From the NCBI GenBank assembly GCA_017508135.1, contig JAFVZN010000106.1:1-48626 (forward strand): a stretch of 48,626 bases of DNA, given 5' to 3'. The position numbers were made by a program, and so were the translations under genes. The notes under the pieces were generated by a model that was not told where the DNA came from, searched no databases, and worked only from the letters and a program-made list of their open reading frames with translations. Of this stretch, positions 145 through 12,066 are shown one piece after another (the first letter of the stretch is position 1; every line of letters begins with the position of its first letter). Source of the DNA: Lentisphaeria bacterium (GTDB lineage Bacteria > Verrucomicrobiota > Lentisphaeria > Victivallales > Victivallaceae).

Positions 145-268
145 GCGGCGAGCGCAGCAAGGCGCGCTCCGGCAAAGCGAGATCACCGCCACTCCCTACT
201 GCGGCGAGCGCAGCAAGGCGCGCTCCGGCAAAGCGAGATCACCGCCCCACCACAGCGAGATCACCGCC
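145..268. repeat. Two 46-bp direct repeats plus a partial third
   Basis: A 46-bp unit starting GCGGCGAGCGCAGCAAGGCG and ending GCGAGATCACCGCC occurs at 145-190 and again at 201-246. The last 14 bases recur alone at 255-268. An inverted fragment (GGCGGTGATATCGC) lies near 71-84. The partial third copy overlaps the stop codon of the SIS-domain gene that ends at 261. The rest of 61-260 shows no gene. Confidence 0.85.
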
Positions 269-1877
269 CCACAAGTATGTGATCCAATGCATACATGACT
301 GCACCGTTGTTTCCCGGCGGCAGCTCCTGCGCCGCTTTGAACAATGCCGTACACGCGGTATGATAATCCACTTTTCCCAGTTCTGAAATCAGGCGGATCG
401 CCCGGTCGATCAGCTTTTTGTTGGATATGGCAACATGGCTCATCCAGTTGCCGCGCACTCTGCCGAGCTTGACCATGGTTCCGGTGGAAATCGTGTTCCA
501 CTGCAGTTTCACCGCCAGATGTTCAAAGATCTTCAGTTTTGTACGCGGCAGTCTGCCGCACGCAGCATCCATCATCCGGAATTTTTTGAAATCCACCGCC
601 TGCACTTTGGCGGCAAACTCCAACTCTGCCGGAACTCCGTTGTAACCGAAGAGGATCGCGGCATCGTGTCCGGTTTCATACCGGCTGGTGAGAAGTTCGT
701 TTCCAACGGGGATCTTTATCAGATCTTCCGCACTGATCTGCGGCGGAGCGTTCACCAGTTTTTCCGGTGCGCGCATGGCGATATAATCCAGCGGTGTCCA
801 CTTTAAACAGCGCAAGTCGCGGTTGCCCAGCGCGCGGCGGATGGCATCGGCACTGGAGTAGAGCGGGTTGCGGACAAACGCCCACGGTTCGGGCATGGTG
901 TCATCATCGATCCGGCGGAACCCCGGCAGCATGAAGGTCGGACTGCGTTCCGTAGTGTCGGTGAAGAGGTCAAGCATATACTCATCGGCAAAATAAGTTA
1001 CTCTGCCGCCGGCGGAGTAGATTTCTGCTTCAAAATCGATGTGTGCGGCAAGTTTTTCCACACAAACATCACTTTCCAGCGCATCCAGCAGCGCGGCGAA
1101 CCCTGCCGCAAACGGGGCAGGGGTGGTGGAATAAATGCGTGCCGCCGCCGTTTCCAGTGCCGCTGAGGCGATGAGCTGTTCGCTGGTCGTTGCCTGCATC
1201 CGGGTGGAACCTGCCAGTGCCATCGGTCCGCAAAAGAGGTCAAGGACGGTTACTTGCGGATTGTCGATCGCCTCCCGGCTCCGCTCCAGATGTTCCCGGA
1301 GCAGTTCAGCCGGGTTGTTGAAAAGCAAAAATGCCTTGCCGCCGTTGCCGGTATGTTCTTTCACCGTTCCGAGAACCGAACTGGTTTCTCCGCCTTCGGT
1401 GATGGCGACCAGCAGATCATCTGCGGTCATTCCCAGATCCCGCACCTGCCGCGCGCCGAATATTGCGTAATCTTCAAATGATTCGACCGATTTTACCAGA
1501 GCATAATCGCCGCCGGTCATAATGCTTTTGACCTGATCGGCGTAACCGGGGCAGGCTTTGCGCCACATCGCTTCCAGAAGTATGCTCAACCGCCCGGTGG
1601 CTCCGCATCCGGAAAAGACCACCGTGTGACCGGAGGTTATGGTTTCGTACACCGCATCGCACAATGCGGTATATTCCGGCGAAAGGAAAACCTTTTCCGC
1701 CATGCGCAGCACGTCACGGTCAACGCTTTGCAGAATGCGTACACCTGCGGTGGTGGAGTTTTTGAATTCCACATCCATCTTTGCGGTCGCCGGATGGGAT
1801 TGTTCTGTCGGCAGAAAACCCAGATGAAACGCGGTTTCATTGAGTTCAAAATTTTTTGCATCGTCAAGGTAAGACAT
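261..1877 (-). CDS. MurQ/GCKR-type double SIS-domain sugar-phosphate protein
   Basis: A 538-residue protein of the N-acetylmuramic acid 6-phosphate etherase / glucokinase regulatory protein superfamily. Visible MurQ-like marks are LPTEQSHPAT near residue 22, the SIS phosphosugar loop GCGATGRL at 90-97 with Glu102, ITEGGETSS, and GSTRMQATTSEQL matching MurQ's GSTRxKAGT. MurQ is about 300 residues. The extra C-terminal half looks like a second SIS module, as in GCKR-type proteins. Family knowledge suggests it cleaves or senses MurNAc-6-P or another sugar 6-phosphate in the cytoplasm; which one cannot be decided here. Start at 1877 is chosen because MSYLDD follows GGGGAGA and longer starts run into the upstream gene's terminator. 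The C-terminus VGR-stop lies in a GC-rich repeat, so it may have been reshaped by repeat insertion. Confidence 0.8.
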   Translation of the reverse strand: MSYLDDAKNFELNETAFHLGFLPTEQSHPATAKMDVEFKNSTTAGVRILQSVDRDVLRMAEKVFLSPEYTALCDAVYETITSGHTVVFSGCGATGRLSILLEAMWRKACPGYADQVKSIMTGGDYALVKSVESFEDYAIFGARQVRDLGMTADDLLVAITEGGETSSVLGTVKEHTGNGGKAFLLFNNPAELLREHLERSREAIDNPQVTVLDLFCGPMALAGSTRMQATTSEQLIASAALETAAARIYSTTPAPFAAGFAALLDALESDVCVEKLAAHIDFEAEIYSAGGRVTYFADEYMLDLFTDTTERSPTFMLPGFRRIDDDTMPEPWAFVRNPLYSSADAIRRALGNRDLRCLKWTPLDYIAMRAPEKLVNAPPQISAEDLIKIPVGNELLTSRYETGHDAAILFGYNGVPAELEFAAKVQAVDFKKFRMMDAACGRLPRTKLKIFEHLAVKLQWNTISTGTMVKLGRVRGNWMSHVAISNKKLIDRAIRLISELGKVDYHTACTALFKAAQELPPGNNGAVMYALDHILVGR

Positions 1878-1902
1878 GATATATACTCTTTCTCCCCGGA
1901 AT

Positions 1903-1929
1903 AAAAACGGGCAGGAATGCTCCTGCCCG
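1903..1929 (-). terminator. Rho-independent terminator of the giant gene
   Basis: A perfect 9-bp stem (CGGGCAGGA / TCCTGCCCG) with a 4-base loop is followed on the minus strand by TTTTTATT. It sits 16 bp after the giant gene's stop and only 26 bp before the start of the SIS-domain gene. That gene therefore needs read-through or a promoter upstream of the hairpin. Confidence 0.9.
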
Positions 1930-1944
1930 GTATATGGTTTCAAC

Positions 1945-4900
1945 TTACTTGCAGTTGAAGGTGATCGCAAACGCCGTATCTCCGGTCTTGCTGTCAGCAC
2001 TCTTGATCTGGAGGTAGTAATCCGTATCCGCCAGCAGAATGTTTTTGGAAACATACTCGCCGAGAGCCGCATCGAAGGTCAACGCCACCGACTTGCCGTT
2101 GACATCCGCCAGCGTCAATGTGATATCCTTGTCGAGCAGAGCTTCGATGGTCGCTTCATTGCTGCCCTGGAAGACGAGAACGCCGTTTTCATCCGTGCGG
2201 ATCTTGAAGACGTCGACCGCATCACCGAAACCGACCCAGTTTTCGATCAGTTCGTTGTTGGAGTAACGGACTGCGGCAGTATCGTTGGCAACCAGTTTCC
2301 ACGTGTCATCGACACTGCTGAAGGTGGATTTGCCTTCGCTGTTAACGCGAACCGAGTTGTTTTCCATCGAAAGTTCATACTGTGAAGCACTGTTTTTGGT
2401 GCTGCTTTCCAGTTTGATGTAGTAAGTTCCGGCGGCGAGTTCCCGCGCCAGTGTCATATCCGCGACACCGGCTTTACCGGAAACCTTCTGCAGCTGCTTG
2501 AAGTTGCCCTTGGCATCCTGCGTACCGATGGAGAAGGTGATCGTTCCGCTGGTTCCGGCAAGGTCAAACATATAGAACCCGCTGGATTCAACAACGATCT
2601 GATAGAAGTCCACCATGTCATCTTTGGTAGTGCCGGTGTTCCACACGGCACTGCTGACGGTGCTGTCGACACTCAGTTTTGTGGCTTTGGCAACAGTGTT
2701 GTCGGCAGTGTCATAATCTTCAAACTTCCAGTTGTTGATGCTGACGGAGTAATCCGTGACTGCACCTTTGTCCGCCTTGGGAGAGACGACTTCGAGCAGA
2801 TAGCTGCCGTTGTCGAGCAGATAGCTGTTGAGGATATCCGCATTCTTGGCGTTGACGGTGAAGCTCTTGATCTTGGTGTTGCTTTCATCGCCGATCCGGT
2901 AGAGCGTGACGGTGATATCTCCTTCGTTATCGCCGAGGGCGAATGTGATATCCGTAGCATCGGTACCGTTGACAGTGAACTTGCAGTAATCAGCGGCATC
3001 ACCGAAACCGACCCAACCGGCGGCGTTGACGTAGCTGTTACCATCGATAACGACCGGAGCTTCGGCTGAATCACCGTCGAACTGAGATTTGACGGTCTGT
3101 TCCAGCGTAACGGTGTAGGAGGTATCTTTCATACCCTTGCCGTCGGCGACCTGGACAGAAACGAAGTATTCACTGCCGGAATTGAGCATCAAACCGGTCA
3201 GCGCACCGGCTTTCGCCTGCGTGGCGGAGACGGTCTTGATCGCTTTGGAGATACCGTCGACCATTTCGTAAACGGTGAGTTTGGCATTGTTGTCAGCGAC
3301 GTTCAACGTGATGTCGTAGATGCCGGTACCGTTGACCAAATCGATCTTGGCGAAGTCGATAACGTCACCGAGACCGGTCCAGCCGCTGTATTCGGAACTG
3401 AAAGTCGGCAGAGTTTCGCTGATGCCGTCATCGTCCATGGCGACTTCACCGTTGCGGTCGATGAGGGTCAAATCGTAAGCGGAATCCTTGGATTTGCTGG
3501 TTCCTTCGAGTTTGACGATGTACTCTCCGGGAGTGGTGAACTCATAGGTGATCGCGGCGGCGGTGCTGTTGGCAGCCGGAGTCAAATTGGCGACCGCTTT
3601 GCCGGTGACGGGATCGATAACGGAGAACTTGACGGCATTGCCGTTGACATTATCAAGTGCGAAGGTGTAGAAACCGGCTTCTCCGATGGTGAGGACGTAA
3701 GAATCGACCTTATCCGCAGGACCGACCTTGCCGGACTTGGTTTCTCCGGCACTCAGCGCGCCGAGGCTCTGGGAGTTGAGAACCAGATCATAGCTGCTGC
3801 TCTGTCCTTTGGCGGTACCGGTGGCGGTAACTTCGACAAAGTAATCGTCTCCGGCGATGAGGGTCATGCCGCTGAGGGCACCGCTGTTCTTTCCGGCGGT
3901 GAGGGTGAGCGTTCCCATTTTCTTTTGGGCGGCATCATAAACGGTGACCTTGACCGGATTGTCGGCATTGCCCGCCACGAGATCGTAGATACCGCTTTCC
4001 GTGACCGTGATCTTGCGGTAATCGGTGGCATCACCCATACCGACCCAGTCGGAAACAGGAACACCGACACTCAATTCCGGCGCGCCGGAGCGGTCATCAT
4101 CGGCGTGGTTGAATCCGGAAATGCTGTTGTTCTGTTCCAGTTTGAACGTGTAATCGGAGTTGGCGGTCTTGCCGTTTGCACTGATCTGGATGATAAAGCT
4201 GCTGTTTGCGGCGGTGACCTCTTCGGCGGTGAACTCGCGGGAGAGGACGAGACCGTTGGCATTTGCCGTTCCGGTGACGTTGGCAAGTTTGACGGTTTTG
4301 CCGCTTTCGGCATCGACATAACTGATGGCAACGGCGATGTTGTTACCGTTGATATTCTCCAGCGTGAAGGTGTAGAGACCGGCTTCGGTGAGGTTGAAGC
4401 TGTAATAATCACTGGCATCACCCATGCCGACCCAGCCGCCAACAGTTCCGTTCAGCGCGACGGCATCGGCGGGCGTATCTGCGCCGGTATCGGGCAGTGC
4501 CAGCTTGTCGGCGATGTTGTAACCGTTGACGTTGATAACATAGTCGCTGTTGAGAGCTTTGGCGGCTCCGGTGGCGGTGACTTCGATGAAGTAAGTTCCG
4601 CCCTTGTCGCCCTTGAGGTAGAGAGAACCGGTGGCGATATCGGCAGCCGTGTTGGCGAGTGTGATGCTCTTGACGGAGCGGAAGCTCTTGGGATTGCCTT
4701 CGGCATCGACTGCGGTCAGCTCATAGATGGTAAGTTTCAACGCTTCATCCGAACCGAGATCGTGGCTGACGGTGAAGTTGTAAACTCCGCCATTTTTGCC
4801 GACTTCGAGACGGTGGAAATCGGTGGCATCGCCGAAACCGACCCAACCGGCGGTTTTTGCGCTGATTTCCGGCGTATCATTGTTCCGCAGATCATCGGCG

Positions 4901-7900
4901 GTGGTGGCGGCGGTGTAGCTTTCGGTCTGTTTGACGTTGACTTCATAGCTGGAACCGAGAGCCTTGCTGCTGCCGGGGGTGACCGCCATGACATACTCTT
5001 TGTTCATGTCGAGGAGCAGTTCTTTGGTGGAAACGCCGTTGAAGCTGCTCTGGTTGGCGGTGACGGAACCCAGGCTCTTGAGTTTTTTGCCGTTATCCAA
5101 CACTTCATAGATGGTAAGTTTGGTGGAAAGCGCGACATCGCTCAAGGTGAAAACGTATTTACCGGAAGCGATGAGGTCAAGGATCTGATAATCTGCCGTA
5201 TCGCCGTAACCGACCCAGTTTTTGGTGGTGGCGAACGCACCGTCGATATTGAAAATATGGTCATTTTCGCGGGCGAGATCAACCGTATCGTCACCGTTGT
5301 AACTGTCAAGTCCGGTCTTGTCGAGGACGAACTCATAACTGGAAACGTTGGCATCGGACTTGGTATTCACCACCTGGAAAGTGTAGGTGGTATTGGAGTT
5401 GAGCAGCAGTTCGCTGAAGATACGTCCGGTATTACTGATGGTGTAGCTCTTCCAGGCTTTGGAGGAGTTTCCTTCATAAATGTTGAGTTTGACGCTCTTG
5501 TTATTGCCGATGCTGATATCGAGATCATCGGCGGTCAAGGTCAACGCCATGCTGTTGGTGGTCTTGATGCAGAAGGTATCGGCGGTATCGCCCTGACCGA
5601 CGGTATCGGCGACGATGAGGCGGCCGTTTGCATCGAAGGACTTGGTAACATCTGTCGCCTGTCCGGATTTGATGGAATCGCCGTACTTGTCGAAGATGGG
5701 TTTGACGGTAACGACTTCATCGTTGGGCCATTCGATACCTTCGTTGCCCTGAGTGTCGACTGCATAGATGCGGAACTCGTAACCGTCGGAACCTTCGGGG
5801 ATACCCTTGAGGATATACTCCGTATCTTTAACTTTTTTAGGATCCTCCCAAGTCGCGGAACCCCTCTTGCGGAACTGGACGACATAATGGTCGATGCCGT
5901 AAGCATCGGAAGCGGCTTCCCAGCGGATGACGAGGTTACAGAATTTATCGTCACCGGCGTTGTCCGGAACGGCGAAATATTCAGTCACGGCAACGCGGCT
6001 GGGGCGGGTGGTATCGAGGATGAATTCGACCTTTTCGCTTTCGGCTTTGTTTCCGGAGGCATCGAAACCGGTGACGGAGAGTTTGTAAGTTCCGTCACTG
6101 ATGGAAACGGTGCTGAGGAAGCGGCGCAGATCGGAGATGGTCAGCGTGCTGCCGGAGATGGAAACACTGTTGGCGATATCGGTACCGAGTTTGTTTTCCA
6201 GATCGAGGGTATCGGCGGTAAAGAGCAGAGTTTTGCCCTTTTCGTCATAAACGTTGACCGCGTATTTGTAGATACCCAACGGGGTATCGGCATCGGTCCA
6301 GGAGACGGCGATAACGCCGGAGTGGACACCGTCGGACATATCGGAGGTATCGACTTTGACGTTGGTGGGGGCGGCGAGTTTGGTATCCAGAACGATGTAC
6401 TTGTCATACTTGTTCTTGAACTCAAAGCTCTGGACATCGCCCTTGCGGTCACTGGAAGCGTTGTACTGGGTGTCGTATGCTTCGACGGTCCAGTAGACGG
6501 TCTTCATATCTTCAAAAATGCTCACCGGGCGGCCGGTGGTATCGCCGCTGAATACCATATACTTTTCACCGGCGGTGGTGGTCCAGAAGGTGTAAGTATT
6601 GGCATCCGGGGAAAGATTTTTGTCGGCGGAAACGGTAACTTTGTAGATGACACCGGAGTCATCCTTGAAGCTGTCGCTCCAGCTGAGGGTGACGGTGGCA
6701 TCGGAAAGGATGGTGGCGACGACTTTTTCGGTGACTTCGACCTTGGGTTGGCCATCTTCCATGACGGGATTGCCCTCTTCATCGAGAACCGGTTTTTCGG
6801 TGACTTCGATAACTTCTTCATAGTTGGCAACGATATCGTGGTTGAACTTGGAGAAGCTGCCGGTGGGGCCTTCGATATCGGTCATGCCGAAGTTGCCGCT
6901 GATGGTATCGGATTTACCGAAGAAGTCATAAGCGACGATCTTGTAATCATAGACCTGCATATCGTAAGCACTGCCGGCGGTCCAGGAGTAATCCAGAACT
7001 TTGTCATCATGGGCGACGGTGTAAACAGCTTCGCCCCACTCTTCGGAACCTTGAGCGCGGACGAAGACGGCGTAATAACGGACACCGAGGTCACCGGCGA
7101 CATCCTGAGCGGCGGTCCAGGAGAGCGTGGGTTTGATGGTGACGACATCGCGTTCGCCATCGTTGACGATCTTGGTTTCGACAGAAACATCGGTCTTGTT
7201 GGAGATGAAGCTGGGGGCACCTTTGTCGGTGATGATGAGGTCGCCGGAAAGGTAGTTGCTGCTCTCGTTGCCGATGTAGTCTTTGGCGTAGATGAAGTAG
7301 GTATACGCGGGATTGGTCAAACCGAGCTGGGCGATGTCGATGGAGTAGCAGATGGCAGCGTTGTTGTGGTTGACCGCAACGGAAGAAACAGCTCCATTGG
7401 CATCGGTGACATCGATATTGGTTCCGATGATATTTCCGTCAGTGAGGATGACCAGATCGCCGTTGGCATCGGCGGTGAAAGATTCACCGTTGACGGTGTA
7501 AACGGCATTGGCGGTGAAACCGGCAAGGGTGATGCGGGTCTGGCAGCTCTTTTCGAGTTCCGCCACGGCGAAGTCGAAGGTCTTTTCAAAGCTCTTGCCG
7601 CCGTTGGTGGAAAGTTTGATGACATAACTGCGGATACCGCTTTCGGCATCGGTGGCACCGTTCCAGATGATGGAACCTTTGAGCGTGGTGCTTTCGAGGA
7701 GGTTTGCCGGGCTGGAGAAGCCGAAGTTCTCTTTGAAAGTGACATCGCCGGTATCGAACAGCGGTTTGGTGATATCGGAATCGAAGGAACCCTGAATGGA
7801 GTTCGTGATATCGACTTCGTTGCCGAAGTAGTCGATCGCGGTGATGTAGTATTTGTAAGAAGCCTTGTTCAAACCGGTGATGACGGCACTGAAATCGAAA

Positions 7901-10797
7901 GTTTCGACAGTGACGTTTTCTGCGGTGATGCCGGTGTTTTGCCATACGCCATCGATGTACTGTTCGATGGTAACGGCACCGTTGATATTCTCTTTGCTGT
8001 TCCAGGCAAGGGAGACGTTGCCGTCTTCGTCGATACGGAGCGCGGCATCGAGGGTGAGACCATTGACATTGACCCGGTATTTGCAGTTCTGGTCGAGAGC
8101 TTTTCCGGTGTCGTTCCAAACGGCGAAGGAGTGGCTTTCCATGGATTCGGAGTTGACTTCGACGACCTTCTTGTTGCCTTTATCATCGGTAAGGGTGATG
8201 ATATAGGCGCGGACACCGCTTTCGCTGTCGGTGGCGTAATTCCAGCCGAGGGTGGCGGAGTAGAGGGTATCCTTGTTTTCGGTATCGGGGGCAGTGACTT
8301 CCAGAGCGGGGAAGTTGAACTGGATGGCGGCACTGCTTTCGGTATCGGAGAAAATCGGATCGGTCTTGTCGTCAGTCGCCCAGACGCGGAAAGTTTCACC
8401 GGCGACCCAGTCGCTCACGTTGCCCTTGGAGTCGATCGCGCGGATCCTCCAGTAGACGAAGGTCTGGTTTTGCAAGTTGGAAACGGCGACCTGAGTACCG
8501 GTCACGAGTTTGGTGTAGTTCATTTCCATGTAATTGGCGATGTAGTCGGAAAGGGAGACGAACTCCTCTCCGGCAGCTTCCATATCGGCGCGCACCTGTT
8601 CGATGGTGAGCTGTTCCGTGAGGGAGCAGTATTCGATCTCGTAGTTGCGGATCGGATTGGTGGAACCGATATTCTTCCAGGAGAGTTCCGCGATAGCGGC
8701 AACGACACCGGTGGTGTTGGCTTTGGGGTTGGCATCGATGACATCGCTGGTCAGCTTGTCAGTGTCAAACTCAAAAGCATTTTCATCGAAGTAGGTGGAA
8801 ATTCCGGGAGCTCCCTCTTCCAGCGGTTTATTGTCGATAATGCGGTAATCGCTCCAGTTGGAAACAGCATTCGCGCTGTTGTCACCGAGGAGGCGCATAC
8901 GGTATTCCAGACGGGTGTTGTTGGCAACGCCGGTGATGTCGAAAGAGTTCTTGCTGCCGTCAAGACGGACGACGATGGATTCGCCGAGCTTATTGTCCCG
9001 GGCATCGTAGAGGAAATATTCGATTTCGTAAGCGGCAACGGAAGCAAGTCCATAGTTGGCGGCAACGACGTTATCCCATTTGATGGTGACGGTTTCTTTT
9101 TCAAAATCGTAAGTTTCGGTGATGGTGGGGTTCTTGGGCTCTTCGACCACATCGTTTCCGGGTTCGGCGGGAGCGACCTCTTCGCCGGGGAGCGGTGCGG
9201 GGGTGTCAACGGTGTAATCCCAAACCAGTTCCGGAGCGGATTCTATGTCGCCGCCGATGGTGACGGAGATGACGGACTGCTTGCCGTCCCAGACGAATTG
9301 GGCGGAGAGTTCCAAAGTGGCTTCTTTGCCGTCGCGGGTGGTGTAGTTGATCCTGGTTTCTCCGGAGAGGCTGTCGGATTTCAGCGAGAGCATCACGTTT
9401 TTGCCGTGGAAGGAGAAAGCGATCTGACGGCCGTTGTCCCAGTATTCGGTGGCATCGAAGTTGTAAGCAAAGAGGTTGTAAGTTCCGGCAGCGGCGTAGT
9501 TGCAGTTGACGGTGAAGGTCATGGAGTCCTTCAAGCTCTTGTCATCATCGTGGGCTTCTTCTCCCCGGGAAGTGATAGCCGCTTTGCCGTCGTTGCGGGT
9601 ATCTTTGTTGAGGTTGAAGAAGAGGTTGACTTCACCGGCACCGGCGATGATACTGCCGTCGATACGGGCGTTGCTGTCAACGGTGATGGTGTTGAGACCG
9701 GCACCGAGGTCGATGTCACCGGAGATGTTGGCAGAACCGGCGATTTCCACGACGTCATCATTCTTGACTTCGGTGACTGTGAATTTTCCGCCTGTCGAAG
9801 CGTGGATGTCGGCATAAATTGCGAAACCATCTTCTTCGATGGTATTGATACTTCCCGAAACCCGGAGGTAAAGCGGACCGCCGCTGATAACACCGTAACC
9901 ATAGGCACTGACATTTCCGGCGATATCGAACATATCACCGGAAACATTGCTCTTGTACTGACCGGTGACGTTGATACCGCCGACAATAGAATCGATCGAG
10001 CCGGTGAAAGCGGAAGCGGTGATATTGCTCGCGTAGATACCGAAGGTGTTGCACTTCATATCGGTGTCGATAACGCCGTCGACCTTCAACACGCCTGTTT
10101 TTATGGCAATAGCACTGGCATCGCTGGTGATTTCGATATCGCCGTACAAGTTGGTCGTACTGGTCAGCGTTGAAGCGTTGATACCGGTGGAGAATTGGGA
10201 AAATGCGCCGGTGTCTTTGGGAGCATTGGATGAAAAATCCATGCCGGTTGCTTTGATGGTGATTTTGCCGTCAAAGTTGGTCAAATTGACCGTGTCGGCA
10301 TTGATACCGTAAACCTGCAATCCGGAACTTTCGATCGAAAGGGAATCTCCGGAGGAGGCATTGATTACGTTGTTGTTGGCGGTGACGTTGATTTCCACAT
10401 CATTGGAAACTTTGCCCAACGTCAGAGTTTTGGCATCGATACCGGCGGCGGTAAGCATGGTGGAGATGGACGCGCTCGCCTTGGTCTCTTTCTGATTGAC
10501 AGCTTTGACCTGGACTCTGTTGTTGGAGAGTGAAACGTTTATGGAAGCACTGACATCAATGGTCCCTTCACCGTCATTGCGGTCATCGGAAACGAGAGTT
10601 CCCATTTCATTGATGGTGATACTGCCTTCGGATTTGATACCGTAGGCACTGATTTCATTGTTGTTGGCACTGGCACTGGTCACGCCGCGTTCGGACGCTT
10701 TGCCGGAGGCGAGGTAGCCGGCACTTGCTATAATTCTGACATTTTCGGTACGCACCGTGATGGTTCCGCCCCAGATGGTGTTGTCGGCGGTGGTCAA
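1945..10797 (-). CDS. Giant repeat protein, main part (FN3-like and PPC-like arrays)
   Basis: About 2,950 residues from a TTG codon. The frame is open back to a TAA at 10858 and continues the upstream 357-residue ORF, so this is probably the larger part of one interrupted gene of about 3,330 codons. Residues 1-520 are Asn/Ile/Gly-rich beta-helix-like repeats (NNNEISAYGI type, SGDIDLGAGLNTI). Residues 550-1700 hold about eight FN3-like units (for example LSWTAAQDVAGDLGVRYYAV). Residues 1730-2950 hold ten units resembling bacterial pre-peptidase C-terminal domains, with the signature WVGxGDxxDY every 105-140 residues near 1736, 1864, 1986, 2126, 2254, 2359, 2475, 2596, 2729 and 2856. No catalytic domain, membrane anchor or sorting motif is recognised. 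An extracellular or surface role is inferred. No Shine-Dalgarno sequence supports the TTG. Confidence 0.8.
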   Translation of the reverse strand: MTTADNTIWGGTITVRTENVRIIASAGYLASGKASERGVTSASANNNEISAYGIKSEGSITINEMGTLVSDDRNDGEGTIDVSASINVSLSNNRVQVKAVNQKETKASASISTMLTAAGIDAKTLTLGKVSNDVEINVTANNNVINASSGDSLSIESSGLQVYGINADTVNLTNFDGKITIKATGMDFSSNAPKDTGAFSQFSTGINASTLTSTTNLYGDIEITSDASAIAIKTGVLKVDGVIDTDMKCNTFGIYASNITASAFTGSIDSIVGGINVTGQYKSNVSGDMFDIAGNVSAYGYGVISGGPLYLRVSGSINTIEEDGFAIYADIHASTGGKFTVTEVKNDDVVEIAGSANISGDIDLGAGLNTITVDSNARIDGSIIAGAGEVNLFFNLNKDTRNDGKAAITSRGEEAHDDDKSLKDSMTFTVNCNYAAAGTYNLFAYNFDATEYWDNGRQIAFSFHGKNVMLSLKSDSLSGETRINYTTRDGKEATLELSAQFVWDGKQSVISVTIGGDIESAPELVWDYTVDTPAPLPGEEVAPAEPGNDVVEEPKNPTITETYDFEKETVTIKWDNVVAANYGLASVAAYEIEYFLYDARDNKLGESIVVRLDGSKNSFDITGVANNTRLEYRMRLLGDNSANAVSNWSDYRIIDNKPLEEGAPGISTYFDENAFEFDTDKLTSDVIDANPKANTTGVVAAIAELSWKNIGSTNPIRNYEIEYCSLTEQLTIEQVRADMEAAGEEFVSLSDYIANYMEMNYTKLVTGTQVAVSNLQNQTFVYWRIRAIDSKGNVSDWVAGETFRVWATDDKTDPIFSDTESSAAIQFNFPALEVTAPDTENKDTLYSATLGWNYATDSESGVRAYIITLTDDKGNKKVVEVNSESMESHSFAVWNDTGKALDQNCKYRVNVNGLTLDAALRIDEDGNVSLAWNSKENINGAVTIEQYIDGVWQNTGITAENVTVETFDFSAVITGLNKASYKYYITAIDYFGNEVDITNSIQGSFDSDITKPLFDTGDVTFKENFGFSSPANLLESTTLKGSIIWNGATDAESGIRSYVIKLSTNGGKSFEKTFDFAVAELEKSCQTRITLAGFTANAVYTVNGESFTADANGDLVILTDGNIIGTNIDVTDANGAVSSVAVNHNNAAICYSIDIAQLGLTNPAYTYFIYAKDYIGNESSNYLSGDLIITDKGAPSFISNKTDVSVETKIVNDGERDVVTIKPTLSWTAAQDVAGDLGVRYYAVFVRAQGSEEWGEAVYTVAHDDKVLDYSWTAGSAYDMQVYDYKIVAYDFFGKSDTISGNFGMTDIEGPTGSFSKFNHDIVANYEEVIEVTEKPVLDEEGNPVMEDGQPKVEVTEKVVATILSDATVTLSWSDSFKDDSGVIYKVTVSADKNLSPDANTYTFWTTTAGEKYMVFSGDTTGRPVSIFEDMKTVYWTVEAYDTQYNASSDRKGDVQSFEFKNKYDKYIVLDTKLAAPTNVKVDTSDMSDGVHSGVIAVSWTDADTPLGIYKYAVNVYDEKGKTLLFTADTLDLENKLGTDIANSVSISGSTLTISDLRRFLSTVSISDGTYKLSVTGFDASGNKAESEKVEFILDTTRPSRVAVTEYFAVPDNAGDDKFCNLVIRWEAASDAYGIDHYVVQFRKRGSATWEDPKKVKDTEYILKGIPEGSDGYEFRIYAVDTQGNEGIEWPNDEVVTVKPIFDKYGDSIKSGQATDVTKSFDANGRLIVADTVGQGDTADTFCIKTTNSMALTLTADDLDISIGNNKSVKLNIYEGNSSKAWKSYTISNTGRIFSELLLNSNTTYTFQVVNTKSDANVSSYEFVLDKTGLDSYNGDDTVDLARENDHIFNIDGAFATTKNWVGYGDTADYQILDLIASGKYVFTLSDVALSTKLTIYEVLDNGKKLKSLGSVTANQSSFNGVSTKELLLDMNKEYVMAVTPGSSKALGSSYEVNVKQTESYTAATTADDLRNNDTPEISAKTAGWVGFGDATDFHRLEVGKNGGVYNFTVSHDLGSDEALKLTIYELTAVDAEGNPKSFRSVKSITLANTAADIATGSLYLKGDKGGTYFIEVTATGAAKALNSDYVINVNGYNIADKLALPDTGADTPADAVALNGTVGGWVGMGDASDYYSFNLTEAGLYTFTLENINGNNIAVAISYVDAESGKTVKLANVTGTANANGLVLSREFTAEEVTAANSSFIIQISANGKTANSDYTFKLEQNNSISGFNHADDDRSGAPELSVGVPVSDWVGMGDATDYRKITVTESGIYDLVAGNADNPVKVTVYDAAQKKMGTLTLTAGKNSGALSGMTLIAGDDYFVEVTATGTAKGQSSSYDLVLNSQSLGALSAGETKSGKVGPADKVDSYVLTIGEAGFYTFALDNVNGNAVKFSVIDPVTGKAVANLTPAANSTAAAITYEFTTPGEYIVKLEGTSKSKDSAYDLTLIDRNGEVAMDDDGISETLPTFSSEYSGWTGLGDVIDFAKIDLVNGTGIYDITLNVADNNAKLTVYEMVDGISKAIKTVSATQAKAGALTGLMLNSGSEYFVSVQVADGKGMKDTSYTVTLEQTVKSQFDGDSAEAPVVIDGNSYVNAAGWVGFGDAADYCKFTVNGTDATDITFALGDNEGDITVTLYRIGDESNTKIKSFTVNAKNADILNSYLLDNGSYLLEVVSPKADKGAVTDYSVSINNWKFEDYDTADNTVAKATKLSVDSTVSSAVWNTGTTKDDMVDFYQIVVESSGFYMFDLAGTSGTITFSIGTQDAKGNFKQLQKVSGKAGVADMTLARELAAGTYYIKLESSTKNSASQYELSMENNSVRVNSEGKSTFSSVDDTWKLVANDTAAVRYSNNELIENWVGFGDAVDVFKIRTDENGVLVFQGSNEATIEALLDKDITLTLADVNGKSVALTFDAALGEYVSKNILLADTDYYLQIKSADSKTGDTAFAITFNCK

Positions 10798-10857
10798 ACT
10801 GGTGTCGGTCCAGATACCGTAGTTGTTGATTTTGTTGTTGTCGGCGTGGGGAGAAGC

Positions 10858-10860
10858 TTA
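10858..10860 (-). other. In-frame TAA splitting the giant gene
   Basis: The codons read GCC GGT TAA GCT TCT on the minus strand. Both sides are in the same frame, and the 20 codons between the stop and the TTG at 10797 look like ordinary passenger-repeat sequence. The stop lies inside a HindIII hexamer (AAGCTT, 10854-10859). Confidence 0.85.
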
Positions 10861-11931
10861 ACCGGCGATGGTGGTTCCGTTTATCGTTATGAAGTCGGGG
10901 TCAGCATCATCGGCATCGATGCTTTCTTCAGAACCGCCGCCGCCCGAGCCGCCGCTGTTTTCCTGTTCTTCTACGAACTCGTAAACTTTCCGGGCATCGC
11001 TGGTGGAGCCGTCCCAATCCGGATCATACCAGTCAGGATTGTAGAAGGGGGCGTTTGGGAGTTCCTTGTCAAGCAGAGCCTGGTCGAGAGTGTTTTTGTT
11101 GTTTCTGACCAGGATATCGGCGCGGAAATTTCCGTCCAGAACGAGGGTGTCAGCTTTGACAGCGGCACCGAGGATGGTGTTGCTGCTGGAATCGTTGCCT
11201 TTGGCAGTTTTATCGCCGGACTTGTAGGTGTAACCGGTGTGGAGCGCGGCAACGTCGGTATCGATGGTACCCGCCAGATCGGAGACAACGGTCAGTTTGT
11301 TGGTGGCGTAGATGGTGTAAGCAATGGTGTCCTTGTAGGGCGCGCCCGGTGCGCCGGAGTTGCCATACACACTGGAAACGTTGTCGCTGTAAACACCGTA
11401 AGCATCAGCTTTGATGCAGATGTTGTCATCGGTCTTGTGAGTGTTCTCTCCGCTTGCCGCGTTGTGGTAGATATTGGCATTCTGCGCACCGTTCTGAGCG
11501 GTGAGAACGAGGGAGTTGCTGCTGCCGTGGAACTTGATGGCACCGCTGATATCAGCGTTGTTGAACTGGACATGGTAGAGGTTGTAGAAGGCTCCAATTC
11601 CAATGGCGTTATCTGTCCACGGATTGGAAACAAAATCATATTTCCAGCCGTTGCGGTAATCCGATGAGGACAAAGCTGTCAGCGAAACGTGTCCGTTGTA
11701 GTTGCCGCCGATGGAAAGTTTTCCGTTTCCGTTACTTCCTTTGACGGAGATACAGAAAGATTCCAGATTGCTGTTATATCCAGCTCCGTCACTCTGACCG
11801 TCGATGGTGATTATCTGTCCGGCAGTTTTGATACCGTTGGCTTCAGGCAGAATAAGAAAATCATACTTCTCGTTATCCGTGATCGTTATAGCCGCGATAT
11901 CATAAAGTTTATCAATGAGCAAAGTCGCCAT
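10858..11931 (-). CDS. Giant repeat protein, N-terminal part, ended by in-frame TAA
   Basis: 357 residues beginning MATLLIDKLYDIAAITITD, with start at 11931 preceded by GGAGG seven bases upstream. The body resembles beta-helix passenger repeats (DNICIKADAYGVYSDN, LVVSDLAGTIDTDVAAL). It ends with an acidic Gly/Ser-rich stretch (GGSGGGGSEE, DADDADPD) and GTTIAG-stop. The reading frame resumes directly after the TAA with ASPHADNNKINNYGIWTD, which matches the repeat style of the downstream part. No N-terminal signal peptide is apparent; if the product is exported, a type I or other signal-less route would be needed, and no such transporter is in the window. It could be a true short protein, one half of a gene broken by a nonsense mutation, or a sequence error. 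Confidence 0.75.
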   Translation of the reverse strand: MATLLIDKLYDIAAITITDNEKYDFLILPEANGIKTAGQIITIDGQSDGAGYNSNLESFCISVKGSNGNGKLSIGGNYNGHVSLTALSSSDYRNGWKYDFVSNPWTDNAIGIGAFYNLYHVQFNNADISGAIKFHGSSNSLVLTAQNGAQNANIYHNAASGENTHKTDDNICIKADAYGVYSDNVSSVYGNSGAPGAPYKDTIAYTIYATNKLTVVSDLAGTIDTDVAALHTGYTYKSGDKTAKGNDSSSNTILGAAVKADTLVLDGNFRADILVRNNKNTLDQALLDKELPNAPFYNPDWYDPDWDGSTSDARKVYEFVEEQENSGGSGGGGSEESIDADDADPDFITINGTTIAG

Positions 11932-11983
11932 GATTTTTCCTCCGATTGGTTATCTTTAATATTAATACACTATTTCGTTACAG

Positions 11984-12012
11984 AATTTAGCACGGAAATG
12001 CTCTGTTGTCAA
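11984..12012 (-). promoter_or_regulatory. Sigma-70-type promoter of the giant gene
   Basis: TTGACA (12007-12012) and TAAATT (11984-11989) on the minus strand are separated by exactly 17 bp, about 55 bp before the ATG at 11931. A run of eleven T on the same strand (12021-12031) lies 8 bp upstream of the -35 box and could act as an UP-element or a slippage-prone tract. Confidence 0.7.
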
Positions 12013-12066
12013 GGTACATTAAAAAAAAAAACGGATATTTTGCACAGATATCCCATGATTCTTCAA

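Follow-up and report, generated by a model that had tools for sequence, protein, structure and literature searches.

The window analysed here is a contig of 48,626 nucleotides assigned to an uncultured gut bacterium of the class Lentisphaeria. On its minus strand, two large open reading frames follow each other across a single TAA, which raises the question whether they are two genes or one giant gene of ~10 kb that was interrupted and, in the second case, whether the stop is a mutation, a switch or an error of the consensus. The contig belongs to a metagenome-assembled genome (MAG) of medium quality (2.0 Mb in 109 contigs, 72.65 % complete, 4.28 % contamination).

Organization of the interrupted gene

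Read through the TAA, the giant gene (11931-1945, minus strand) comprises 3,328 codons and is treated here as one interrupted gene; its features are listed in Table 1. An earlier note, made from the letters of the window, had placed the 357-codon and 2,950-codon ORFs in one frame without giving their strand. Through-translation bore this out, with stops at codon 358 and next at codon 3329, both ORFs being on the minus strand. The 20 codons separating the TAA from the first possible restart could be aligned to both orthologues considered (G046 and G009, see below). In a codon-usage scan of all six frames over the 48.6 kb, this TAA was the sole break in the contig with strongly coding same-frame sequence on either side, the second match of the scan being an antisense shadow of the giant gene itself. 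A second lesion was sought in the 8.9 kb after the stop and none was found.

Table 1. Features of the giant gene and its start region (window coordinates)
Feature	Position	Strand	Remarks
Sigma-70-type promoter TTGACA-17-TAAATT of the giant gene	11984..12012	minus	Scan, 10/12 matches; conserved in G046
Shine-Dalgarno CGGAGG of the true start	11939..11944	minus	Sequence; also CGGAGG in G046
ORF1	11931..10858	minus	ATG start; 357 aa; TAA at 10860..10858
N-terminal piece, 357 codons	10858..11931	minus	Without Pfam match; N-terminal rungs of predicted right-handed beta-helix and low-confidence linker (from the fold of the G046 orthologue with homologues)
In-frame TAA, codon 358	10858..10860	minus	Conserved sense codon in the same column of the nearest orthologues
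20 codons (60 bp) from TAA to first possible restart	10798..10857	minus	Gap-free alignment to the G046 orthologue
TTG, first possible restart codon	10795..10797	minus	Without Shine-Dalgarno
ORF2 as called	10797..1945	minus	TTG start; 2,950 aa
Remaining 2,970 codons	1945..10857	minus	Rest of the beta-helix, followed by fibronectin-III-like and repeated C-terminal domains; ends in TAA 1947-1945

Homologues and distribution of the family

Six homologous copies spanning the site were found in five other genomes (G046, G009, G042, G117 and, with two copies, G048), each of them as one frame without a stop. They lend good support to the earlier proposal of one gene split by an in-frame stop and speak against two genes in series, a reading that was rejected. 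The closest comparison was offered by G046, a congener represented by the roe-deer caecum Lentisphaeria MAG RGIG4094 (locus G046:C110, L046; JAFTRX010000003.1). Its orthologue is a single stop-free frame of about 3,340 codons (3,346 from stop to stop) that aligned straight across the TAA, with protein identities of 53-91 % per 200-column block over the whole length and similar values on both sides of the stop site. On the same strand, its neighbours are a GKRP/SIS-type gene on the downstream side and, upstream, a nucleoside deoxyribosyltransferase gene. The two loci thus display the same neighbours, promoter block and ribosome-binding site, and lengths within about 10 codons of each other, but the G046 orthologue, unlike the window copy, is one open frame with no stop at or near the position. 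The G009 copy is more distant (about 32-54 % identity) and likewise consists of a single frame, of 3,238 codons.

All site-spanning homologues displayed a sense codon or a gap at the stop column. The comparison of this codon with homologous giant genes, which had been suggested earlier as a check, returned a sense codon that is conserved in the nearest copies and differs from TAA at more than one base. A search among the relatives for homologues that consist of two genes, with a separate ribosome-binding site for the second, found none. With a profile placed over the junction, 12 of the 137 genomes of the order gave a match, and only the window copy contained an internal stop (one TAA). A single-gene organization of the giant family in relatives is well supported by these alignments. 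Since the nearest relatives carry a conserved sense codon and none of the relatives a stop, the interruption is confined to the window copy, as far as the relatives compared show, no second strain being among them. For annotation this calls for caution: automatic gene callers would report the first 357 codons as an orphan and, as an unrelated gene, a stretch of 2,950 codons that begins at a false start, although the locus holds one interrupted gene.

Counting this genome, seven of the 34 that were searched in the genus carry the family; because of this low incidence the family is probably dispensable, with a patchy distribution between species. Its frames span about 2,300-6,600 codons. Homologous giant frames of 6,633, 6,046 and 4,350 codons were observed at G042:C10 (L028, L048), G117:C45 (L043) and G048:C109 (L026), respectively. 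Among public genomes, a search with the window protein alone gave no match, and the profile retrieved six loci, all from Lentisphaeria/Lentisphaerae MAGs, four of the loci bearing a roe-deer caecum or sheep colon label. Viral contigs gave no match, and no paper on the family was found among the literature matches listed. The locus reveals the existence, in gut Lentisphaeria, of a family of giant beta-helix proteins.

Predicted fold

The first 357 residues displayed no Pfam match, and NCBIfam returned nothing of use; the N-terminal domain of this patchy family is covered by no Pfam or NCBIfam model. Fibronectin III domains were matched by Pfam in later parts of the protein. No known anchor or autotransporter barrel was detected by Pfam in the pieces tested, and no PDB sequence was matched by the C-terminal part. 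Folding the 357-residue piece as a single sequence gave no usable model (pLDDT 34). Residues 1-619 of the G046 orthologue, modelled from a seven-row alignment, were predicted to form a right-handed beta-helix, a stacked parallel-strand solenoid (mean pLDDT 65.8). Confidence was low at residues 289-359, a linker, and mostly reached pLDDT 70-97 after about residue 360, where the helix resumes; the stop column falls just at this resumption.

The best structural neighbour of the model was Cthe_2159 (PDB 4peu; Z 17.5, rmsd 3.2 over 221 residues), followed by pertactin, tailspikes and alginate lyases/epimerases; Foldseek alone yielded no match at E <= 0.001. The predicted fold is therefore that of the right-handed parallel beta-helix proteins, which include the polysaccharide-lyase-like Cthe_2159 as well as adhesin and autotransporter passengers, although the sequence identity is only 16 %. 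The beta-helix and the fibronectin III matches make the surface-type character proposed earlier plausible, but no classical signal peptide was seen at the N-terminus (by eye and hydropathy) and no known anchor in the pieces tested.

Start signals

The Shine-Dalgarno sequence of the giant gene lies seven bases 5' of the ATG at 11931. Within about 160 codons past the stop there are seven in-frame ATG, GTG or TTG codons, and none of them displayed a Shine-Dalgarno match of more than three nucleotides. The TTG 60 bp past the TAA had been described earlier as devoid of such a site, and it indeed reaches a match of at most three nucleotides, against CGGAGG at the true start. As no early restart codon exceeds this limit, the sequence gives no sign that the distal part is a gene of its own.

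The G046 orthologue keeps the block from TTGACA through TAAATT and about 25 bases beyond. The block common to the window and G046, TTGACAACAG..ATTTCCGTGCTAAATTCTGTAACGAAATAGT.TATTAATAT (11959-12012, minus strand), extends well past the promoter hexamers and may hold an operator. Eight bases upstream of the -35 hexamer, the minus strand carries a T11 tract (12021-12031), the longest homopolymer of the window; near the equivalent spot, G046 displays A and T tracts of eight to nine bases that are arranged differently. A change in the length of T11 could alter the strength of the promoter.

Selection and age of the lesion

Compared with G046 (dS = 0.56), dN/dS amounted to 0.31 ahead of the stop, 0.27 in the 199 codons directly past it and 0.24 over the whole distal part, so that no relaxation was seen, a result to be expected whether the lesion is very recent or an error. 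With G009 as outgroup, residues unique to one lineage numbered 17 (window) and 26 (G046) in the proximal part, and 91 (window) and 83 (G046) in the distal part, without acceleration. Over the 199 codons that follow the TAA, the 14 unique residues of the window exceeded the six of G046, but this small excess lacks significance (p about 0.12 in a two-sided binomial test). A random substitution in the distal part has a chance of about 3 % of making a stop; the clean distal frame therefore limits neutral divergence after the event to roughly 1.1 % per site, or to 0.2-0.4 % per site on the assumption that a further 5-10 % of mutations are frame-shifting indels. Given this bound and the unrelaxed dN/dS, the lesion is recent, or it is a consensus error and not real.

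Origin of the stop codon

The earlier note had left the choice between a nonsense mutation, a reversible off-state and a sequence error. The interruption of the giant gene is best read as a nonsense lesion, recent and of an ordinary kind, or as an error of the consensus, with the lesion as the favoured reading: a recent nonsense change probably broke the gene at codon 358, which reads as a stop in the assembly consensus, and the weight of about two thirds that we give to a real change is a matter of judgement. An ancestral single gene of 3,328 codons would have been hit at this codon, and the strain would now make a 357-residue stub, probably useless, predicted to consist of the first beta-helix rungs without the remaining ~2,970 residues. 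The 2,970 codons downstream would be an untranslated remnant that has not yet decayed, and the lesion may have reached fixation in the strain or may represent one allele where the population is mixed. Against a single recent step stands the difference of more than one base between TAA and the codon of the nearest homologues, so that such a step would have to start from an intermediate sense codon. In bacteria, genes for large repetitive or surface proteins that a nonsense change has recently turned into pseudogenes form a general category; the window copy resembles them in its single premature stop, intact start signals and otherwise clean frame, but its stop is a putative one, called in a MAG consensus.

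A consensus or assembly error, by which the TAA would exist in no real cell or would blend strain variants of the metagenome, is possible, if clearly on the unlikely side. The fragmentation of this medium-quality MAG into 109 contigs, a flanking frame otherwise perfect over about 10 kb and the similar selection on either side of the stop would all agree with it. It is opposed by the same codon difference, since one miscalled base cannot give TAA if the immediate ancestor had the codon of the homologues. Moreover, the site shows no homopolymer, repeat or step in composition that would mark a join, and the 48.6 kb contain no other same-frame coding break. One particular artefact, a cloning join at HindIII, had been proposed earlier because AAGCTT overlaps the stop. 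The overlap is real (10854-10859), but such joins are not to be expected in a contig assembled from a metagenome; this, the ordinary number of sites (seven in the window against 10.8 +/- 3.3 expected) and the equal similarity to the orthologue on both sides ruled it out. A change of the genetic code was ruled out as well, dnaE, gyrA/parC, gyrB/parE, purL and others being read normally with all three stops in use.

A regulated stop at codon 358 is unlikely. The stop could be polymorphic or reversible, being present in part of the population and lost by reversion or by recombination with an intact allele, as a source of variation for a costly giant protein. The preserved promoter, ribosome-binding site and downstream frame fit this idea, but a recent plain mutation accounts for the same facts, and no relative carries a stop anywhere in the matched region. 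Marks of phase variation were likewise not found, with no simple repeat tract at the stop, no inverted repeats in 10700-11050 and neither a duplicate cassette nor another copy of the region elsewhere in the genome, which leaves the reversible off-state unsupported and improbable. Readthrough of the stop or restart of translation, giving both parts, would explain why no decay is seen past the stop, yet TAA is normally a tight stop and also terminates the giant gene and several of its neighbours, the early restart codons all lack a Shine-Dalgarno sequence, and the site is not a conserved recoding site because homologues carry no stop there. We regard this possibility as very unlikely, and are just as sceptical of the view that the population keeps the TAA as an off-switch that is reversible or partly read through, with only some cells making the costly protein.

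Antisense and downstream frames

A stop-free frame of 2,367 codons was observed on the plus strand (3070-10170), antisense to the giant gene; the longest antisense frame at the same place in the G046 orthologue has 1,162 codons. The frame of the window is most likely a codon-usage shadow and not a gene. Directly downstream of the giant gene, in the window as in G046, lies an ORF for a GKRP-type SIS protein (261-2072, minus strand, in the window). As called, it overlaps the end of the giant gene, and its true start is therefore probably further in.
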